DNA from: a virus
Length of the DNA: 25,867 bases
Direction: 5' to 3' (one strand)
Virus record (IMG/VR): IMGVR_UViG_3300025383_000097
Coordinates: 1-25,867 of that record
Translations under genes and position numbers: made by a program
In this document: positions 3,019 to 20,486 of the stretch, piece after piece
Position numbering within the stretch: position 1 is the stretch's first letter
How the letters are laid out: each line of letters opens with the position of its first letter
The notes under the pieces: generated by a model
Databases searched by the model: none
The model's input: the letters and a program-made list of their open reading frames with translations, nothing else
Told to the model about the DNA's origin: nothing

Positions 3019-3987
3019 ATGTTTGAGATATTATCTATTATTCCTGGCAAAAAGAAATCAACTAGTAGTGGTTGGCAAAGCTTTAACGCCCCCTGTTGTG
3101 TTAATCGTGGACACAAAGCAGACCGTCGTATGCGAGGCGGGGTAATAACTGACGGGCCAAACAAATGGACATATCATTGCTTTAATTGTAACTTCAAATG
3201 TGGATTTGTATTAGGTAAATCATTAACTAAAAACACTAAATTATTATTAACTTGGTGTGGTATAGACAGTGATCAAATTACTAAATGGAATTTTGAAAGT
3301 TTACAACACAAAGATTTGTTAGACTTTACTAATAAAAAACGTGAAAAGAAAAAGGTAAAGTTCAAAGAAATGAAATTACCTGAGGGTGAATTAGTTGATG
3401 TAAACAATATAAATCACAAAGTATACGTTGATTATTTACAAAAACGTGGCATAACTATTAGCGAATATCCCTTCTTAGTAACACCAAATGCTGAAGGACG
3501 TAACAGTAATAGAGTTATCATACCCTTTACACATGAAAATAAAATTGTTGGTCATACAAGTAGATTTTTAGATGACAGAAAACCTAAGTTTATAAGTGAA
3601 CAACAATCAGGATATTTGTTTGGTTATGATTTACAAAAAAGTGATTATCAATTTTGTATAGTAGTCGAAGGTATATTTGACGCATTGAGTATTAATGGAT
3701 GTGCATTAACGCATAATTCAATCAGTGAAGAACAGGCTACATTACTAAAAAATCTTAATAGAAAGATTATCGTTGTGCCTGATCAAGACAAAGCTGGGTT
3801 AGAAATTTGCGATAGAGCATTAGAATTAGGATTTAGTGTTAGTTTGCCAGACTGGAACGTTAAAGATGTTAATGATGCTGTAGTAAAATATGGCAAAGTA
3901 GCAACTATGCTAAGTATACTGCAAAATGAAACTAGCAGTAAGATAAAGATTGAAATGAGGAAAAAAGAAATTGCTAAACGATTATAA
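3019..3987 (+). CDS. 61: DNA primase (T4 gp61 type)
   Basis: This 322-aa protein (T4 gp61 has 342) should make RNA primers for lagging-strand synthesis with the gp41-type helicase encoded next. An N-terminal zinc-binding region has C26, C27, H32, C54 and C57 (PCCVNRGH...CFNC). A TOPRIM domain follows, with E217 in VVEGIFDAL and the acidic pair D255/D257 in VPDQDKAG. The start ATG 3019 has no ribosome binding site; it lies six bases after a near-consensus -10 box, so the message is probably leaderless. The end overlaps the helicase start by 17 bases, matching the 61-41 order of T4-like phages. Confidence 0.9.
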   Translation: MFEILSIIPGKKKSTSSGWQSFNAPCCVNRGHKADRRMRGGVITDGPNKWTYHCFNCNFKCGFVLGKSLTKNTKLLLTWCGIDSDQITKWNFESLQHKDLLDFTNKKREKKKVKFKEMKLPEGELVDVNNINHKVYVDYLQKRGITISEYPFLVTPNAEGRNSNRVIIPFTHENKIVGHTSRFLDDRKPKFISEQQSGYLFGYDLQKSDYQFCIVVEGIFDALSINGCALTHNSISEEQATLLKNLNRKIIVVPDQDKAGLEICDRALELGFSVSLPDWNVKDVNDAVVKYGKVATMLSILQNETSSKIKIEMRKKEIAKRL

Positions 3988-5362
3988 TGTCGAAGTACAA
4001 ACATTGTTTTTACGTATGATGGTTACAAACGCTGAGTTATATACTCGTGTTATGAATATCATGAATCCAAAAAACTTTGATCGCACATTGCGACCAGTAG
4101 CAGATTTTATTGTTGACCACAGTAAAAAATATAATGTTATGCCAGAACCAAATCAAATTAAGGCAACAACAGGTCAAACTATTGAAACTGTAGATGATTT
4201 AGATGATGGACATTATGAGTGGTTCTTAGAAGAATTTGAGGCATTTACTAAACGACAAGAACTTGAAAGGGCTATTTTAAAGTCAGCCGACTTATTAGAA
4301 AAAGGTGAATATGATCCAGTAGAAAAACTAATCAAAGATGCTGTGCAAATTAGTCTACAACGTGACATGGGTACTGACTATTTTGACGATCCTCGTGGTC
4401 GATTAATGGCACTTAAAAGCAGCAATGGACAAAACAGTACAGGCTGGCCTAGCATGGATAAGAAACTATATGGTGGGTTCAATCGTGGTGAATTACAAAT
4501 CTTTGCTGGTGGCTCAGGTTCTGGTAAAAGTTTGTTTATGCAAAATCTTGCTGTTAACTGGGCACAATCAGGCTTAAATGGTGCATATATAACCTTAGAA
4601 TTAAGTGAAGGTCTTTGTGCGTTGCGCATCGATAGTATGATGACACAAACTGCTAGTAGGGACATTTTCAAAGATATTGACAATGTTGAAATGAAAGTTA
4701 AAATGGCAGCAAAGAAGGCAGGTAAACTTAGAATCAAATATATGCCAGCACAAAGCACAGTAAACGATATCAGAGCATATTGTAAAGAACTACAAATACA
4801 AACTGGAGTAAAAGTAGATTTTTTATGTATCGATTATCTTGATTTGATTATGCCCGTAAGCGCAAAAGTAAGTCCCAGCGATTTGTTTGTCAAAGACAAA
4901 TATGTTAGTGAAGAATTGCGTAACTTGGCAAAAGAATTAAACGTATTGTTTGTAACAGCCAGTCAGTTAAATCGTGCTGCGGTAGAAGAAATCGAATTTG
5001 ATCATAGTCATATTTCAGGTGGTATTAGTAAGATCAATACTGCTGATAACGTGTTTGGTATCTTTACAAGTCGTAGTATGCGTGAACGTGGGCAATATCA
5101 GTTACAATTAATGAAAACTCGTAGTAGTTCTGGTGTAGGTCAAAAGATTGAACTTGCATTTGACGTAGATACTCTAAGAATTACAGACCCTGAAGAAAAT
5201 TCTGACAATTCTACAGTTCCTCAGCCCTCAGCTAATGACATTATGAGTAAAATTAAGACGGTTTCAACTATAACCGATAGTATAGAACCTGAAACTAAAA
5301 AGGTCGTAGCTGATGTTCAAAGCTCCAAATTAAAGAGTTTATTGAACCAACTAAACAAATAG
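3971..5362 (+). CDS. 41: replicative DNA helicase (T4 gp41, DnaB family)
   Basis: The 463-aa protein matches T4 gp41 in size (475 aa). It has an N-terminal helical domain, then a RecA-type core with Walker A GGSGSGKS (180-187, K186) and Walker B FLCIDYLD (D288), followed by a Gln-bearing strand (FVTASQLNRAA). As a hexamer it should unwind the fork 5' to 3' on the lagging strand and activate the primase. I chose TTG 3971, which has GAGGA eight bases upstream inside the primase gene; a later in-frame ATG (4016) lies inside conserved helical sequence. The last 45 residues are Ser, Thr and Lys rich and look flexible. Translation is probably coupled to the primase. Confidence 0.92.
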   Translation: MLNDYNVEVQTLFLRMMVTNAELYTRVMNIMNPKNFDRTLRPVADFIVDHSKKYNVMPEPNQIKATTGQTIETVDDLDDGHYEWFLEEFEAFTKRQELERAILKSADLLEKGEYDPVEKLIKDAVQISLQRDMGTDYFDDPRGRLMALKSSNGQNSTGWPSMDKKLYGGFNRGELQIFAGGSGSGKSLFMQNLAVNWAQSGLNGAYITLELSEGLCALRIDSMMTQTASRDIFKDIDNVEMKVKMAAKKAGKLRIKYMPAQSTVNDIRAYCKELQIQTGVKVDFLCIDYLDLIMPVSAKVSPSDLFVKDKYVSEELRNLAKELNVLFVTASQLNRAAVEEIEFDHSHISGGISKINTADNVFGIFTSRSMRERGQYQLQLMKTRSSSGVGQKIELAFDVDTLRITDPEENSDNSTVPQPSANDIMSKIKTVSTITDSIEPETKKVVADVQSSKLKSLLNQLNK

Positions 5363-13048: not shown

Positions 13049-13083
13049 GATAAATAGTTTTAATACGAGTATATTAAAACTAT
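13049..13083 (+). promoter_or_regulatory. late promoter overlapping an inverted repeat that reaches the start codon
   Basis: The late box GATAAATAG is at 13049-13057. An inverted repeat has arms ATAGTTTTAATA (13054-13065) and TATTAAAACTAT (13072-13083), 12 bp each with a 6-base loop. The right arm ends on the AT of ATG 13082. The predicted late start near 13062 removes most of the left arm from late mRNA, while read-through mRNA from 12343 would contain the full hairpin. Confidence 0.65.
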
Positions 13084-15997
13084 GGCTATTGTACAAATTT
13101 CCCAAATCCAACAAAGATCCGGTAATCTTGTAGATTTACCGCAACTTAACGAAGCCGAATTTGGCTGGGCAACAGATACTAAACAACTGTTTATTGGTAA
13201 AACTACCCCTGCTGAGAATATTGAAGTATTAACTTCTTATTCAAATATTGCATTTGATCAAATTACAGGTGCTGTAGGTAATTTAAATATCACCGCATCA
13301 TCATTAAGTACAGGAGAAGTACTAGCATTTGACGGAACCAATTGGGTCAATGCAGGTGGAAATGCAGGTGGAAACATTAATTTAGGTAATGTTAGCAATG
13401 TAAGCATTGGTGGCGGAGCTATTGGTTATGTATTACAAACTGACGGTACCGGAAATTTAAGTTGGGCACCTAAAACAACACTAACAGCATATATTCAAGA
13501 TGTTACAAAAGCTAATCCCGCAGTAGTTACTACAACACAAGATAACTATTTCACTAAAGGAGCTGCTGTAACAATTACTAATGTTCCTGGAATGACACAG
13601 CTTAATGGTCAAGTCTATTATGTTGTTCCTGTAACTTCTAATACATTTAATTTATGTACTACCCAAGATGGTAATACATCTAACTTAATAAATTCATCAA
13701 GTTATACAGCTTTCCCTTATTCAGCAGTGTCTAATACATTTGCTGGCAACTCAGGTATTTTATTGTCAAACTCAGTACCTTTTTCTACAGGTGAAAGTAT
13801 TCAATTTATAGGCACAACATTTGGCGGCATTCAGGCAAATACTACCTATTATATTTTAACAAATTCAGCTAACGTTATTACTGTGTCACTAACTCCAGGA
13901 GGAAGTACAGTAGGTTTAACTACTGCTAATGGTACTGCTAACGTATACGCAACAGGTGGTAGAGCCATTTCATCTATTGGTGGCTCAGGTGGTAACTCAG
14001 CAGCAGCCGGATCAACCACATCTATACAATATAACAATAATAACTTATTAGCAGGTAGTGCAAGTTTAACTTATGACTTTGCTAACTCTATATTAACTGT
14101 AAGTAATTTGTCTGTATCAAATCCAAATACAGGAAGTATTTTTTCAAACAATTTTTTTGCTACAAACAATATAACTGCTAATCGTATATCAGGTAATTTA
14201 ACAACAAATGCACAACCTAACATAACAAGTGTTGGTACACTAACTTCTCTTAACGTATCAGGTAACGCTAATGTTGGTAACATTGGTGCTGGTACAGGGG
14301 TGTTTACTGCTGGCATAACAGACGTTTCTGGTACTGGTTATGCATTGCGTGTTGTCAATCCAGGCGGAGCATCTTATGCTACATCCACTAGTGCCGTAAC
14401 TGGTGCAATAAAGATTACATTACCTCAAGGTTTTACAAATACCATGATGCGTATGACCGTTACAGTTTATACGTATGATGGTCAAGCGTTTGAAATTAAT
14501 CTAGGTGGATATAACTATTTACCATCCTCGGGATGGTATAGTACTTTTGCTGATATTACTACGAATTCTCGTCCCGCCTTGAATGTAAGATTTGGATTTG
14601 ATGGCACATATTGCTGCATTTATATCGGTGAAACAAGCACAGTATGGAGTTACCCTCAAGTATTCGTAACTGAATTCCAAGCAGGTTATAGTAACTATGC
14701 AGCTTCACAATGGAATACTGGTTGGTCAGTTTCTTTTGCAACAACATTTTTGAATGTAACTTCATCAGTCAATACTGCATCAATGGTATTGTATGCTAAT
14801 GGTTCTGGGTTAACTAGCTTAACAGGGTCTAATGTCACTGGTACAGTAGCATACGCAACTACAGCTAACTCAGTTGCAGGTGGTAATGTCAGTGGTGCTG
14901 TTGGTCTTGCTACTTACGCAACTACAGCAAACGCAGTAGCAGGTGGTAATGTCAGTGGTGCGGTTGGTTTAGCTACATACGCCACAACTGCTAACAGTGT
15001 AGCAGGTGCAAACGTATCAGGTGCAGTAGCCTACGCAACTACTGCTAACTCAGTAGCAGGTGGTAATGTCAGTGGTGCTGTTGGTCTTGCTACTTACGCA
15101 ACTACAGCAAACGCAGTAGCAGGAGCTAACGTGAGCGGCACTGTAGCGAATGCAAACAATTCAAGTTACTTGGGCGGACTATCTCAAACATCTGCTGCAT
15201 CTGCTTCAACAGTAATGGCTCGTGATACAAATGGTTACGCATTTGCGGTTTACTACAATGCTACAGGTACGTTCCCAACAACTGGTTCAGCCGCTACTTC
15301 TGGCATGGCTACATTTACAGGTACTAACGGTAGTGATAACTACGGTAGAGGTTATACAGCGGCTGCTGCTGCAGCATTGCTATCTGGGCAGTCAATGAAC
15401 ATTGTCGGGTCTGCATCTACAGTCACGACAGCAGCACAACCAAATATCACTTCAGTTGGTACATTGAGTTCACTAGCAGTAACAAACGGTATTACTGGTG
15501 CAAGTTTGTCAGTTGGTTCAGGTGCAGTAACATTAGGTACATTGACAACTGGTGCAAACACTACATCAGGTACAGTAACTGGTAACTGGACATTAAGTGC
15601 AGGTAGCAGATGGAACGCTACATACGCTGACTTGGCAGAAAATTACGTTTCAGATGTAAACTATGAACCAGGTACAGTTCTTGTATTCGGTGGTGAATAT
15701 GAAGTTACTATGGCAAATGAATTTGATTCAACAAGAGTTGCAGGTGTAGTTTCTACAAATCCAGCTTATATTATGAATGCAGGTTGTGAAGGTGATAACG
15801 TAGTAACTGTAGCATTAACCGGTCGTGTACCAGTTAAAGTACAAGGCAATGTCAGCAAAGGTGACTTAATGGTAACTGGCGCAAATGGTTATGCAGTAGC
15901 AAATAATTTAGCACGTGCAGGTACAATCATTGGTAAGGCTCTTGAAAACTTTAACGGTGTCACAGGCATCATAGAAGTAGTAGTCGGCCGCGTATAA
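13082..15997 (+). CDS. tail-fiber-like virion protein with tandem repeats
   Basis: This 971-aa protein starts MAIVQISQIQQRSGNLVDLP followed by LNEAEFGWATDTKQLFIGK, an N-terminal attachment module seen on fibers and other tail proteins of marine phages. A beta-rich middle follows, with LNGQVYYVVPVTSNTFNL and NTTYYILTNSANVITVSL modules. Residues about 583-690 hold Ala/Val/Gly tandem repeats of 18 and 21 residues (NVSGAVGLATYATTANAVAG). The C-terminal domain begins near Y848 (YADLAENYVSD), with FGGEYEV, RVAGVVSTNPAY and ALTGRVPVKV, a module often found at the ends of marine viral structural proteins. It probably contacts the host surface. Codon use shifts after about residue 580 towards AAC, GGT and GCT, suggesting a mosaic gene. 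Late expression is expected from the promoter at 13049. Confidence 0.8.
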   Translation: MAIVQISQIQQRSGNLVDLPQLNEAEFGWATDTKQLFIGKTTPAENIEVLTSYSNIAFDQITGAVGNLNITASSLSTGEVLAFDGTNWVNAGGNAGGNINLGNVSNVSIGGGAIGYVLQTDGTGNLSWAPKTTLTAYIQDVTKANPAVVTTTQDNYFTKGAAVTITNVPGMTQLNGQVYYVVPVTSNTFNLCTTQDGNTSNLINSSSYTAFPYSAVSNTFAGNSGILLSNSVPFSTGESIQFIGTTFGGIQANTTYYILTNSANVITVSLTPGGSTVGLTTANGTANVYATGGRAISSIGGSGGNSAAAGSTTSIQYNNNNLLAGSASLTYDFANSILTVSNLSVSNPNTGSIFSNNFFATNNITANRISGNLTTNAQPNITSVGTLTSLNVSGNANVGNIGAGTGVFTAGITDVSGTGYALRVVNPGGASYATSTSAVTGAIKITLPQGFTNTMMRMTVTVYTYDGQAFEINLGGYNYLPSSGWYSTFADITTNSRPALNVRFGFDGTYCCIYIGETSTVWSYPQVFVTEFQAGYSNYAASQWNTGWSVSFATTFLNVTSSVNTASMVLYANGSGLTSLTGSNVTGTVAYATTANSVAGGNVSGAVGLATYATTANAVAGGNVSGAVGLATYATTANSVAGANVSGAVAYATTANSVAGGNVSGAVGLATYATTANAVAGANVSGTVANANNSSYLGGLSQTSAASASTVMARDTNGYAFAVYYNATGTFPTTGSAATSGMATFTGTNGSDNYGRGYTAAAAAALLSGQSMNIVGSASTVTTAAQPNITSVGTLSSLAVTNGITGASLSVGSGAVTLGTLTTGANTTSGTVTGNWTLSAGSRWNATYADLAENYVSDVNYEPGTVLVFGGEYEVTMANEFDSTRVAGVVSTNPAYIMNAGCEGDNVVTVALTGRVPVKVQGNVSKGDLMVTGANGYAVANNLARAGTIIGKALENFNGVTGIIEVVVGRV
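14876..15123 (+). repeat. tandem 63-/54-base repeats in the fiber gene
   Basis: Units of 63 and 54 bases follow each other within 14831-15150. Two 68-base blocks (14876-14943 and 15056-15123) are identical at the DNA level and 180 bases apart; other units differ at several positions. Identical copies among diverged ones suggest recent duplication or conversion. Confidence 0.85.
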
Positions 15998-16475: not shown

Positions 16476-18797
16476 ATGAAAATAACAGTTATCAAGCGTT
16501 CAGGCAATAAAGAAGAATTAACAGTCGAAAAATGGCAAGCCCAAGTAGCAAAAATATGTAAAGGCATTGCAGATGTTTCTCAATCAATGATCGAGATTAA
16601 AGCACAACCTCATTTCTATGATGGTATAACCACACGTGAAATTGATGGCATTACATTACGTGCTATTGTTGATTTAATTGACGTAGAAACCAATCCAGAT
16701 ATTGGTCATGTAAACTATCAGTATGTTGCTGGTAAACAAAGACTAAGTATGCTACGCAAAGATGTATATGGTTCTTATACAGTACCACATCTTTATGAAA
16801 TTGTTAAAAAGAATGTTGATCTTGGATTGTATACAAAAGAATTATTAGAATGGTATACAATCGATGATTGGAATAAAATGAATGATATGCTCGACCATGA
16901 AAAGGATGAGCAATATAGTTACGCAGCGATTGAACAATTGATTGAAAAGTATCTTGTAAAGAATCGCGCTACAGGAGAAATCTATGAAACTCCACAAATA
17001 CGTTACATGGTTGCAGCAGCAACAGTATTCCATAATGAAGAACCGAATACCGCTAGAATGCGATACATTAAGGAATACTATAATTGCGCCAGTGATGGTC
17101 TTTTCACTTTGGCTACTCCAGTGCTTGCAGGACTGGGAACACCCACTAAACAGTTTAGTAGTTGCGTTCTTATACGCAGTGATGATGATTTGGATAGCAT
17201 TTTTGCTAGTGGAGAAATGATGGCTAAGTATGCTAGCAAACGTGCTGGCATTGGCTTAGAGATTGGCAGATTAAGACCATTGGGTTCGCCTATTCGCGGC
17301 GGTGAAATTAAACATACTGGAATGATCCCATTCTTAAAGAAATGGTTTGCTGACTTGCGTTCCTGCTCACAGGGCGGTATTAGAAATGCCTCAGCAACAG
17401 TATTTTATCCTATATGGCACCATCAATTTGATGACTTGATTGTATTAAAGAACAATCAGGGAACAGAAGAAACACGTGTACGACATTTAGACTATGGCGT
17501 AGTACTAAGTGCTTTCTTCTGGAAACGCTTTAAAAACAAAGAAAATATCACTTTCTTTGATCCTAACGAAGTTCCAGACTTATACGAGGCTTTTTACAGA
17601 AATTCCGAGAAATTTGAAGAACTTTACGTCAAATATGAAAAACGTAAGGATTTGCGTAAAAAGACCATGAGTGCTGAAGATGTATTCAAAGGCGGTATTT
17701 TAAAAGAAAGAACTGATACTGGTAGAATTTATCTTGTATTCATCGATAACGTTATGAATCAGGGCCCATTTGATCCCGAATACCATACAATTTACCAGAG
17801 TAATTTGTGTTGCGAGATCCTTCTTCCCACGAAGTCATTCAAGCGGTTGGATGATGATAAGGGTAGGATTTCCCTCTGTACGCTGGGGAGTATAAATTGG
17901 GGGAGTTTTAGGCACCCTGAAGACATGCGCCGTGCTTGTCGTATCCTTCAGCGCAGTCTTTGTAATATATTGGATTACCAAGACTATCTCTCTATTCAAT
18001 CTAAACTAAGCAACGATGAAATCAGTCCATTGGGCATTGGCGTAACTAATCTTGCGTACTGGCATGCTAAACGTAATTTAAAATATGGAGAATCAGATAG
18101 TTTACAAGAAGTTAAATCTTGGATGGAGCATCAAGCATACTATCTTACAGAAGCCACAGTTGAACTTGCTAAAGAACGTGGTAAATGTTTAGACAGTGAC
18201 AAAACATACTATGGTCAAGGGAAATTCCCTTGGGAACGTAGAGCAGAAGGTGTTAATGAATTAGCAGACTTTGCTCCTGAATTAGATTGGGAATCATTGC
18301 GTACAGATATGAAACAGTATGGAGTACGTAACGCAACATTAATGGCAATTGCTCCTGTTGAAAGTTCATCAGTAGTAATCAATAGTACAAATGGTATTGA
18401 ATTGCCAATGAGTTTAATTAGTGTTAAAGAAAGTAAAGCTGGTAGCTTAACACAAGTTGTTCCTGAATATCAAAAACTTAAAAACAAATATCAATTGATG
18501 TGGGATCAACCTGACTGTATTGGTTATCTAAAAACGGCAGCAGTATTGGCAGCATATGTTGATCAAAGTGTTAGTACAAATACTTTCTATAACCCTGCCT
18601 ATTATCCAGACCGTAAAGTGCCTACTACATTGATTGCTAAGAACTTAATGCAGGCACATTACTTTGGTATCAAGACCTTTTATTATAGCCTCGTGAGTAA
18701 GCAAGGATCAAAAGCTATAGATGAAACTCCGCCAGATATGCCACTTGAACAAATCAATTTTGATGACGATAACGACTGTCTGGCTTGTAAATTGTAA
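16476..18797 (+). CDS. nrdA: ribonucleotide reductase class Ia, large subunit
   Basis: This 773-aa protein reduces ribonucleotides to deoxyribonucleotides together with NrdB. An N-terminal ATP-cone-like region ([15 protein letters not shown]...) is followed by the barrel. C230 (SSCVL) and C468 (SLCTL) are the redox pair (C225/C462 in E. coli). N443, C445 and E447 (NLCCE) are the active-site trio (N437, C439, E441). The Tyr pair is in KTFYYS, and the C-terminal Cys pair in DCLACKL takes electrons from glutaredoxin or thioredoxin. The gene is intact. Bases 17806-17960, which encode the active-site Cys to residue about 495, are GC-rich and use codons rare elsewhere (CTG, CTC, CGG, AGG, GGG, ACG, CCC). 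A homing endonuclease gene follows immediately. Confidence 0.95.
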
Positions 18798-18798
18798 T

Positions 18799-18807
18799 GA
18801 TAAATAC
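18799..18807 (+). promoter_or_regulatory. late promoter box GATAAATAC for homing endonuclease
   Basis: GATAAATAC overlaps the nrdA stop region. CTTGTA (18784-18789) and TACAAG (18805-18810) flank it as a 6-bp inverted repeat. The predicted start is near 18812, giving a leader of about 57 bases to ATG 18869. Confidence 0.6.
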
Positions 18808-18868
18808 AAGTGCCGATCGCGATACTGATAATATCCACCGGCTCTATAACTGTGTGGAGTTACAGCAA

Positions 18869-19405
18869 ATGTATTTACACTATTACATCTATGCCTACTT
18901 GAGAAAAGATGGCACACCCTACTATATTGGTAAGGGAAAAGATGATCGAGCATGGGAACAACACCGAATTAACAATAAAGGTGTACATACTCCAGAAAAA
19001 TCTTATATCATTATTTTAGAATCTAACTTAACAGAAGTTGGAGCTCTAGCACTTGAACGAAGAATGATTCGATGGTACGGTAGAAAAGATTTAGGTACTG
19101 GTATATTGCATAATAGAACAGACGGCGGAGAAGGTACGGCTGGAATAGTTTTTACAGAAGATCATAAATCTAAAATAAGTAATGCTTTAAAAGGTATTAA
19201 AAGACCGCCGCAATCGGAAGAAAGAAAACGTCAAGTGCGTGAAAAACTAAAAGGTCGAGCAAAGTCTGAAGAAACTAAATTGAAATTAAGATTATCGCAT
19301 AATAAAAATTCTAATCCAGTTGGAGTTAAGCGATCAGAAGAAACAAAACAAAAAATGAGAGAAGCTCAATTGAGAAGGAATAAAAATGTCAAAACAACAA
19401 TATGA
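18869..19405 (+). CDS. GIY-YIG homing endonuclease, free-standing
   Basis: From ATG 18869 the protein has 178 aa: [21 protein letters not shown]. It has the GIY-YIG catalytic pattern (YYIYAYL...YYIGKG), a downstream Arg/Glu helix ([10 protein letters not shown]) and at least three NUMOD3-type DNA-binding repeats ([36 protein letters not shown]). It should cut one preferred site, probably in phage lacking the gene, and spread by repair. GGAG at 18856-18859 is nine bases before the ATG. An upstream in-frame ATG (18797) touching the nrdA stop adds 24 GC-richer residues without a ribosome binding site, and a late promoter lies inside that extension. The gene sits between nrdA and nrdB, like mobE in T4. 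Its 3' end overlaps nrdB by 20 bases. Confidence 0.88.
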
Positions 19406-20486
19406 TTTAAGCAAACCAACTGATTATCTTAATCGTAAGATGTTCTTAGATCCTGCAGGTCCAGTCACAATACAGAAATTTGAGGAGACTAAATATCGTA
19501 AGATTGCAGACTTTGAAGCGACAGCCCGAGGCTTCTTCTGGGTACCAGAAGAAATTAGTTTGACAAAAGATAGCCAAGATTTTAAAGACGCAAGCGATGC
19601 CGTCAAACATATCTTTACAAGTAATTTGCTAAGACAAACTGCATTGGATAGTTTACAAGGTCGTGGCCCTAGTCAAATTTTTACACCAGTTATTAGTTTG
19701 CCTGAATTAGAGGCACTTGTTTATAACTGGACATTCTTTGAAACAAATATTCACAGTCGTAGTTATAGCCACATTATTCGTAACATTTATAATGTACCTA
19801 AAGATGTATTCAATACAATTCATGACACTCAAGAAATTGTTAACATGGCAAGTAGTGTTGGTAAATACTATGATAATTTACATAAATTAAATTGCGCCTA
19901 CGAACTAGACGGAGATATCGCAGAAGAAGATCACATTAAAGCAATCTATATGGCATTACATGCAAGTTATGCATTGGAAGCATTTAGATTCATGGTGAGT
20001 TTTGCTACAAGTTTGGCAATGGTTGAAAATAGAATTTTTATGGGCAATGGTAATATTATTAGTTTAATTTTACAAGACGAACTATTACACAAAGAATGGA
20101 CTGCATATATTATCAATCAAGTAGTAAAAGAAGACCCAAGATTTGCAAAATTAAAATCAGAATGTGAAACAGAAGTATACAACATGTATATGGACGTCAT
20201 CCGTGAAGAAAAAGAATGGGCAGACTATTTGTTTAAGAAAGGTAGTGTTATTGGACTTAACGCAAATATTTTGAAAGATTTTGTTGATTACACAGCAAAT
20301 AATGCTTTAAAAGATGTCGGCATAAAATATAATCAATCAGCACCAAAAACCACTCCCATCCCATGGTTCAATAAACATCAAAACACTGCCAATAAACAAA
20401 CAGCATTACAAGAAAGTGAAAGTACAAGTTATGTTGTTGGCGTTATGAGCGACACATTAAATTACGATGAGTTGCCTGAACTATAA
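19386..20486 (+). CDS. nrdB: ribonucleotide reductase class Ia, small subunit
   Basis: This 366-aa protein houses the di-iron/tyrosyl radical. D88 (LDSL), E119, H123 and Y127 ([11 protein letters not shown]), the Glu in [10 protein letters not shown], and DELLH give the ligands and the radical Tyr. E119 and H123 are separated by three residues, whereas the E. coli motif is ETIH with two. The last residues ([11 protein letters not shown]) form the tail that binds NrdA. Its ribosome binding site, AGAAGGAA, lies inside the homing endonuclease gene, which overlaps the start by 20 bases, so expression has been preserved despite the insertion. Glutaredoxin follows 32 bases on. Confidence 0.94.

Follow-up and report, generated by a model that had tools for sequence, protein, structure and literature searches.

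The nrdA region of the window

The window considered here is the whole 25.9-kb record IMGVR_UViG_3300025383_000097 of an uncultured virus with a T4-like gene content, for which a near-identity search of phage records returned no matches; its own sequence is denoted W, and the contigs of its relatives carry L numbers. The genes for the two subunits of ribonucleotide reductase flank a gap that houses a homing endonuclease gene (Table 1). A long gene at 13082-15997 differs between W and its sister L200 in the block 15445-15625 and is identical around it.

Table 1. Features of the nrdA region and its surroundings, in coordinates of the window
Feature	Position	Strand	Evidence or occurrence
nrdA, class Ia ribonucleotide reductase large subunit, 773 aa, uninterrupted	16476..18797	+	Pfam PF02867 E=2e-108, PF00317 E=4e-17; PHROG 84 E=1e-263
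Block in which W departs from its sister L200 at 7 of 31 nt, up to the intein site	17777..17807	+	
Patch with revised limits (putative footprint), codons 445-481: unusual codons; residues S466, S477, H480	17808..17917	+	Identity profile against L005
Split-intein insertion point NLC|CEI (codon 445|446) in relatives	17810..17811	+	L223, L219/L221, L214/L222, L248, L189, L091, others
GIY-YIG-type endonuclease (HEG) element splitting nrdA in two in relatives, near codon 463 (~17865)	17859..17867	+	L195, L202, L203, L204, L205
Block of 41 nt in which W, L195 (HEG-occupied) and L193 (empty) agree at every position	17877..17917	+	
20-nt word TGGGGGAGTTTTAGGCACCC (recoded WGSFRHP); sampling probe	17898..17917	+	In 17 contigs, 11 interrupted
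Exact match of 118 nt to L005, marking the right border of the patch; ordinary sequence	17914..18031	+	
GIY-YIG/NUMOD3 homing endonuclease gene in the nrdA-nrdB gap	18797..19405	+	NUMOD3 (Pfam) E=5e-9; PHROG 314 homing endonuclease E=6e-15; GIY-YIG motif by eye
nrdB, small subunit	19386..20486	+	Pfam PF00268 E=4e-44; 5' end within the conversion tract of the downstream endonuclease

Among the relatives compared, the length of the nrdA-nrdB gap lies between -4 and 3033 nt, and the segment 18783-19585 is a site of endonuclease exchange: W and L086 carry copies of the GIY-YIG gene that are 99.5% identical in otherwise diverged genomes (about 80% identity in the surrounding matching region), and in L200, which matches W almost perfectly over most of the two nrd genes, this place is taken by an unrelated HNH gene.

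Composition and borders of the active-site patch

Inspection of nrdA confirms the GC-rich, codon-shifted patch which the first-pass annotation had placed over the active site: its counts of 76 G or C in the 150 bases at 17811-17960 (50.7%) and of 23 in the 60 bases at 17641-17700 are exact, the whole gene having a GC content of 37.3%, and C445, E447 and C468 are indeed encoded within it. The GC3 of the patch is 0.54 as against 0.27 elsewhere in nrdA, and this contrast (patch minus rest, 0.27) is the highest among 81 sequences (W and 80 relatives), the remaining 80 having a mean of 0.046 with an sd of 0.073. When synonymous codons are shuffled within the gene and all windows are counted, a GC3-rich peak as strong as that of W in a 52-codon window has p=0.0017, with the caveat that windows of similar strength occur in other relatives elsewhere in nrdA. 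Further, 9 of the 39 codons in the patch are shared with <5% of 98 ordinary relatives, and nowhere else in nrdA do such rare choices lie so close together. The codons said to be scarce outside the patch are a mixed set: CGG and AGG are restricted to it and GGG and ACG each occur once elsewhere, whereas CTG (1 in the patch, 2 elsewhere in nrdA), CTC (1 and 3) and CCC (1 and 2) are simply rare gene-wide.

The limits first proposed, 17806-17960, can be narrowed. Identity to the closest relative, L005, is 87-90% just upstream, falls to about 70% in the patch and rises to 99% in the downstream flank, which places the anomaly at about 17808-17917 and leaves the last 43 bases (17918-17960) as ordinary sequence. 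Over codons 444-482 the two sequences differ by 20 synonymous and 5 non-synonymous codons, as compared with a single difference in the next 39 codons. On the left, the border at 17808 adjoins the known insertion site of a homing element at 17810|17811, as expected of a co-conversion tract; differences between W and L200 lie to the left of this point and identity to its right. The short block of differences at 17777-17807 probably stems from a further small conversion event in either W or L200, on the side of the N-extein.

Toward the right border, the 41-nt block is shared with L195 and L193, in which identity to W over the rest of nrdA is about 74-75%. Chance, or local translational selection on codons (for expression or mRNA structure), is hardly credible as the source of the patch: the GC3-rich windows elsewhere in the nrdA of relatives would suit it, but this run of identical codons in other lineages contradicts it, and the amino-acid changes, the sharp borders and the conflicting trees (see below) likewise speak against it.

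The first-pass annotation had also linked the patch to the endonuclease gene 0.9 kb downstream, and free-standing phage endonucleases can indeed cut hundreds of bases from their own gene (PMC2988022); additionally, L091 combines an intein with a related endonuclease (59%). Nevertheless, that this gene caused the patch, through its target or its conversion tract, is very improbable because the tract shared with L086, which spans only about 18783-19525, stops short of the patch, and because L200 has an identical patch with the HNH gene. The gap-side block of difference between W and L200 that accompanies the swap runs from about 18068 to 19585, with the patch outside it.

Elements at the patch sites in relatives

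Comparison with relatives shows that elements occupy two sites in this region, at both of which W lacks an insert (Table 1). Precisely at the codon boundary NLC|CEI, L091 and further relatives bear a split intein; the inserts of L223 and L219 read as IntN, an HNH ORF and IntC, and the C-exteins of L223, L219/L221 and L214/L222 read like W. The element near codon 463, typified by L195, consists of a 235-aa endonuclease gene (PHROG 314) with no annotated relatives among phage records, and the tail which precedes it weakly matches part of the intein splicing domain (E=0.02, below the Pfam cut-off). The HEG-element alleles of L195 and L205 are 93-96% alike at codons 444-461 and 465-482, as opposed to 74-77% just outside, and these limits point to a co-conversion tract with the same extent as the patch of W. 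Occupied alleles combine W-like flanks with the odd residues S477 and H480 of W. As for group I introns, no Rfam hit was obtained at the gathering threshold in 14 sources, and the inserts read as inteins or ORFs; hence, of the introns or inteins anticipated at matching codons in relatives, the inteins are present at the exact codon boundary and the introns did not materialize.

Several of these loci display additional complexity. In L195, the HEG element lies between a conserved 45-aa tail (GEFKLNLDDGTEITLPGQHKVLL...; 3339-3473) and a short MRIIKKEC leader (4167-4206), which resemble remnants of split-intein halves without the splicing residues. The nrdA gene of L189 (4234-10238, minus strand) is in four coding pieces. 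An insert lies near codon 229, codon 446 is the site of a split intein accompanied by an HNH ORF, and about 15 codons farther on there follows a GIY-YIG element that has an intein-like tail. Two such modules would enclose the piece that bears the active-site glutamate, which would amount to a short peptide. A further type of insert near codon 463 is found in L216 (6705-8465, minus strand) and L304; that of L216 contains a GIY-YIG-like ORF, and this type has an acidic leader (EEIDDEYEYYEIDEAEGRIALC) on NrdA-C. Finally, L195 and L219 are nearly identical in downstream nrdA (tree branches of about 0), yet they carry the HEG element and the intein, respectively, which suggests fast turnover at neighboring sites.

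The similarity of the patch to the flanks of these elements is uneven along its length. Its 3' half is 81-93% identical to HEG-occupied alleles as against 72% to L005, the closest to W elsewhere; thus, as expected of a co-conversion tract, it is nearer to element-bearing alleles than to the recipient lineage. No allele outside the W group matches the whole patch closely (the best, L223, reaches 81% over codons 446-482), and the closest allele changes from one sub-segment to the next: L223/L219 are 88-92% identical to W over codons 446-453, and no occupied allele matches the middle (codons 454-469) well. The HEG element alone was considered as the donor and found insufficient, given that KSFKRL and S466 of W occur with intein alleles and not with HEG alleles. 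Over the same codons, GC3 is 0.57 in the W group as compared with 0.30-0.43 in other recoded alleles, occupied or empty; since the GC excess is thus peculiar to the W group among the recoded alleles sampled, the exact donor of W appears to lie outside the sample.

To relate recoding to occupancy, two samples of alleles were drawn by DNA pattern, one with the recoded and the other with the ordinary 3' end, the former using the 20-nt word with two degenerate positions. The recoded 3' end was found in 17 contigs, of which 11 are interrupted, by inteins at 445|446 (L214/L222, L219/L221, L223), by the HEG element (L195, L198, L215, L218, L220) or by another insert (L216); the six empty ones are L193, L217 and all four contigs of the W group, among which there is no intermediate. 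The scan for the ordinary 3' end returned 112 uninterrupted and 2 interrupted alleles, with 6 cut by contig ends. After dereplication, 7 of 11 recoded lineages (7 occupied, 4 empty) are occupied as opposed to 2 of 102 ordinary ones (2 and 100), a difference with a Fisher p=3e-7, which is optimistic since the lineages are not fully independent.

Phylogenetic trees of the patch and of downstream nrdA are likewise in conflict. The patch tree unites 11 recoded alleles on one branch (81/93), a grouping that is partly circular as 4 of the 11 were picked by the 20-nt pattern, while L202, L203 and L205 were recovered independently, by protein search. In the tree of codons 483-740, the recoded alleles are scattered (7 changes), and W and L200 group with L005 at 100/99, a conflict that agrees with recombination. 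Hence, two of the checks proposed in the first-pass annotation, of codon statistics and of phylogeny, bear out its suspicion, the latter with the above partial circularity; a common tree with ordinary codons, which would have counted against it, was not what was found.

Origin of the patch and its implications

Taken together, these comparisons make it probable that the patch is a gene-conversion footprint of homing elements which is now empty, the element having been lost or its flanks alone having been copied. It would represent the flanking coding DNA of a pool of nrdA alleles with homing elements at active-site codons, namely the split intein with its HNH gene at codon 445|446 and the GIY-YIG endonuclease element near codon 463. 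Recombination of the W lineage with a virus of this pool would have copied in about 110 bp of flank, most likely via repair of an endonuclease cut, which would then be the cause of the transfer. W may itself have once carried the element; it would possess the flanks without it either through later loss of the element or through a repair confined to copying the flanks. The initial proposal of a gene-conversion tract is therefore upheld by the conflicting trees and the tract-like identity profiles. The related proposal of a scar of a lost intron or intein fares well in part: the presence of an intein at the exact left border, and of the HEG element inside, makes the scar of a lost intein plausible, whereas the Rfam searches gave no intron.

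That co-infecting phages exchanged a short patch by ordinary gene conversion, without the involvement of any mobile element, is an unlikely origin. Exact runs of at least 100 nt occur at several positions between nrdA genes that are <83% identical, and diverged relatives often share exact runs >45 nt in other parts of the gene, such that short conversion does not need an element. This process predicts, however, neither the above association with occupancy nor a border on the intein site. The length of shared exact runs was rejected as sole evidence for the footprint, there being longer runs between other pairs elsewhere in nrdA, as was the notion of the patch as a conversion hotspot, because it is not specially hot whereas codons 331-345 are. 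At the latter (17466-17510 of the window), diverged nrdA genes share long exact matches more often than anywhere else in the gene, with about 5.5% of pairs having a run of at least 45 nt, a peak which local conservation does not explain.

A tentative alternative, which the first-pass annotation had also raised, is that the patch is an immune allele, i.e., a recoded target that is kept by selection because the endonucleases of the elements cannot cut it; this is compatible with the transfer and differs on why the patch is kept. It would account for the 20-nt word, in which nearly every codon differs from the ordinary spelling (including A477S and N480H) and which is found beside three kinds of insert and also in the empty alleles W, L193 and L217; moreover, escape mutations in homing sites have been reported for inteins (PMC10643990). 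On the other hand, insertion itself already destroys the homing site, and immunity is thus not needed for the linkage. A more doubtful extension is that the recoded stretch constitutes a shared resistance allele, with which unrelated elements that invade the active site might travel and which element-free phages might keep.

The architectures seen in the relatives have precedents. "Fractured genes", in which phage nrdA has split inteins with an endonuclease gene between the halves, were reportedly described by Dassa et al. in 2009, a study cited in PMC3653736. L223 and L219 are comparable, with NrdA-IntN, an HNH ORF and IntC-NrdA at the active-site cysteine pair; W differs in having the flank only and no intein. 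The nrdA gene of Aeh1 is presented, in the account that cites the original work, as split by mobE, a free endonuclease gene, with no intron (Friedrich et al. 2007, cited in PMC2988022). On that account the L195-type element is similar in splitting nrdA with a free endonuclease gene and no intron, and distinct in that its protein is GIY-YIG-like as opposed to HNH, and in the intein-like tail that closes the NrdA-N piece. A query with the tail, aimed at the Aeh1 split site, gave only cyanophage nrdA among the matches listed.

The process itself is also known. Homing endonucleases of T4 cause exon co-conversion and marker exclusion, in which the element-bearing version of the DNA beside a homing site supplants the resident one, and nrdA/nrdB are a known target area (PMC2988022); in W, by contrast, the flank is seen without the element, and the evidence comes from comparing sequences of uncultured viruses. 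In yeast mitochondria, excess exonic diversity is observed beside mobile introns (Repar and Warnecke 2017, PMC5378118); it is not tied strictly to the presence of the element and has been attributed to co-conversion from divergent templates or to mutagenic repair (PMC5378118). W similarly has excess divergence in coding DNA bordering a mobile-element site, although the yeast elements are self-splicing mitochondrial introns and those of phage nrdA are inteins and split-gene endonucleases. A comparable process has been described for archaeal inteins (PMC10643990).

The patch in W thus looks like a clear natural example of this known process, left by selfish elements. If so, an essential viral gene can bear legible traces of selfish homing elements without containing any of them. 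Further, intein-bearing, split, empty recoded and empty ordinary genes form a natural allele series at one enzyme active site, which makes the choice between scar and resistance testable for the empty recoded alleles.
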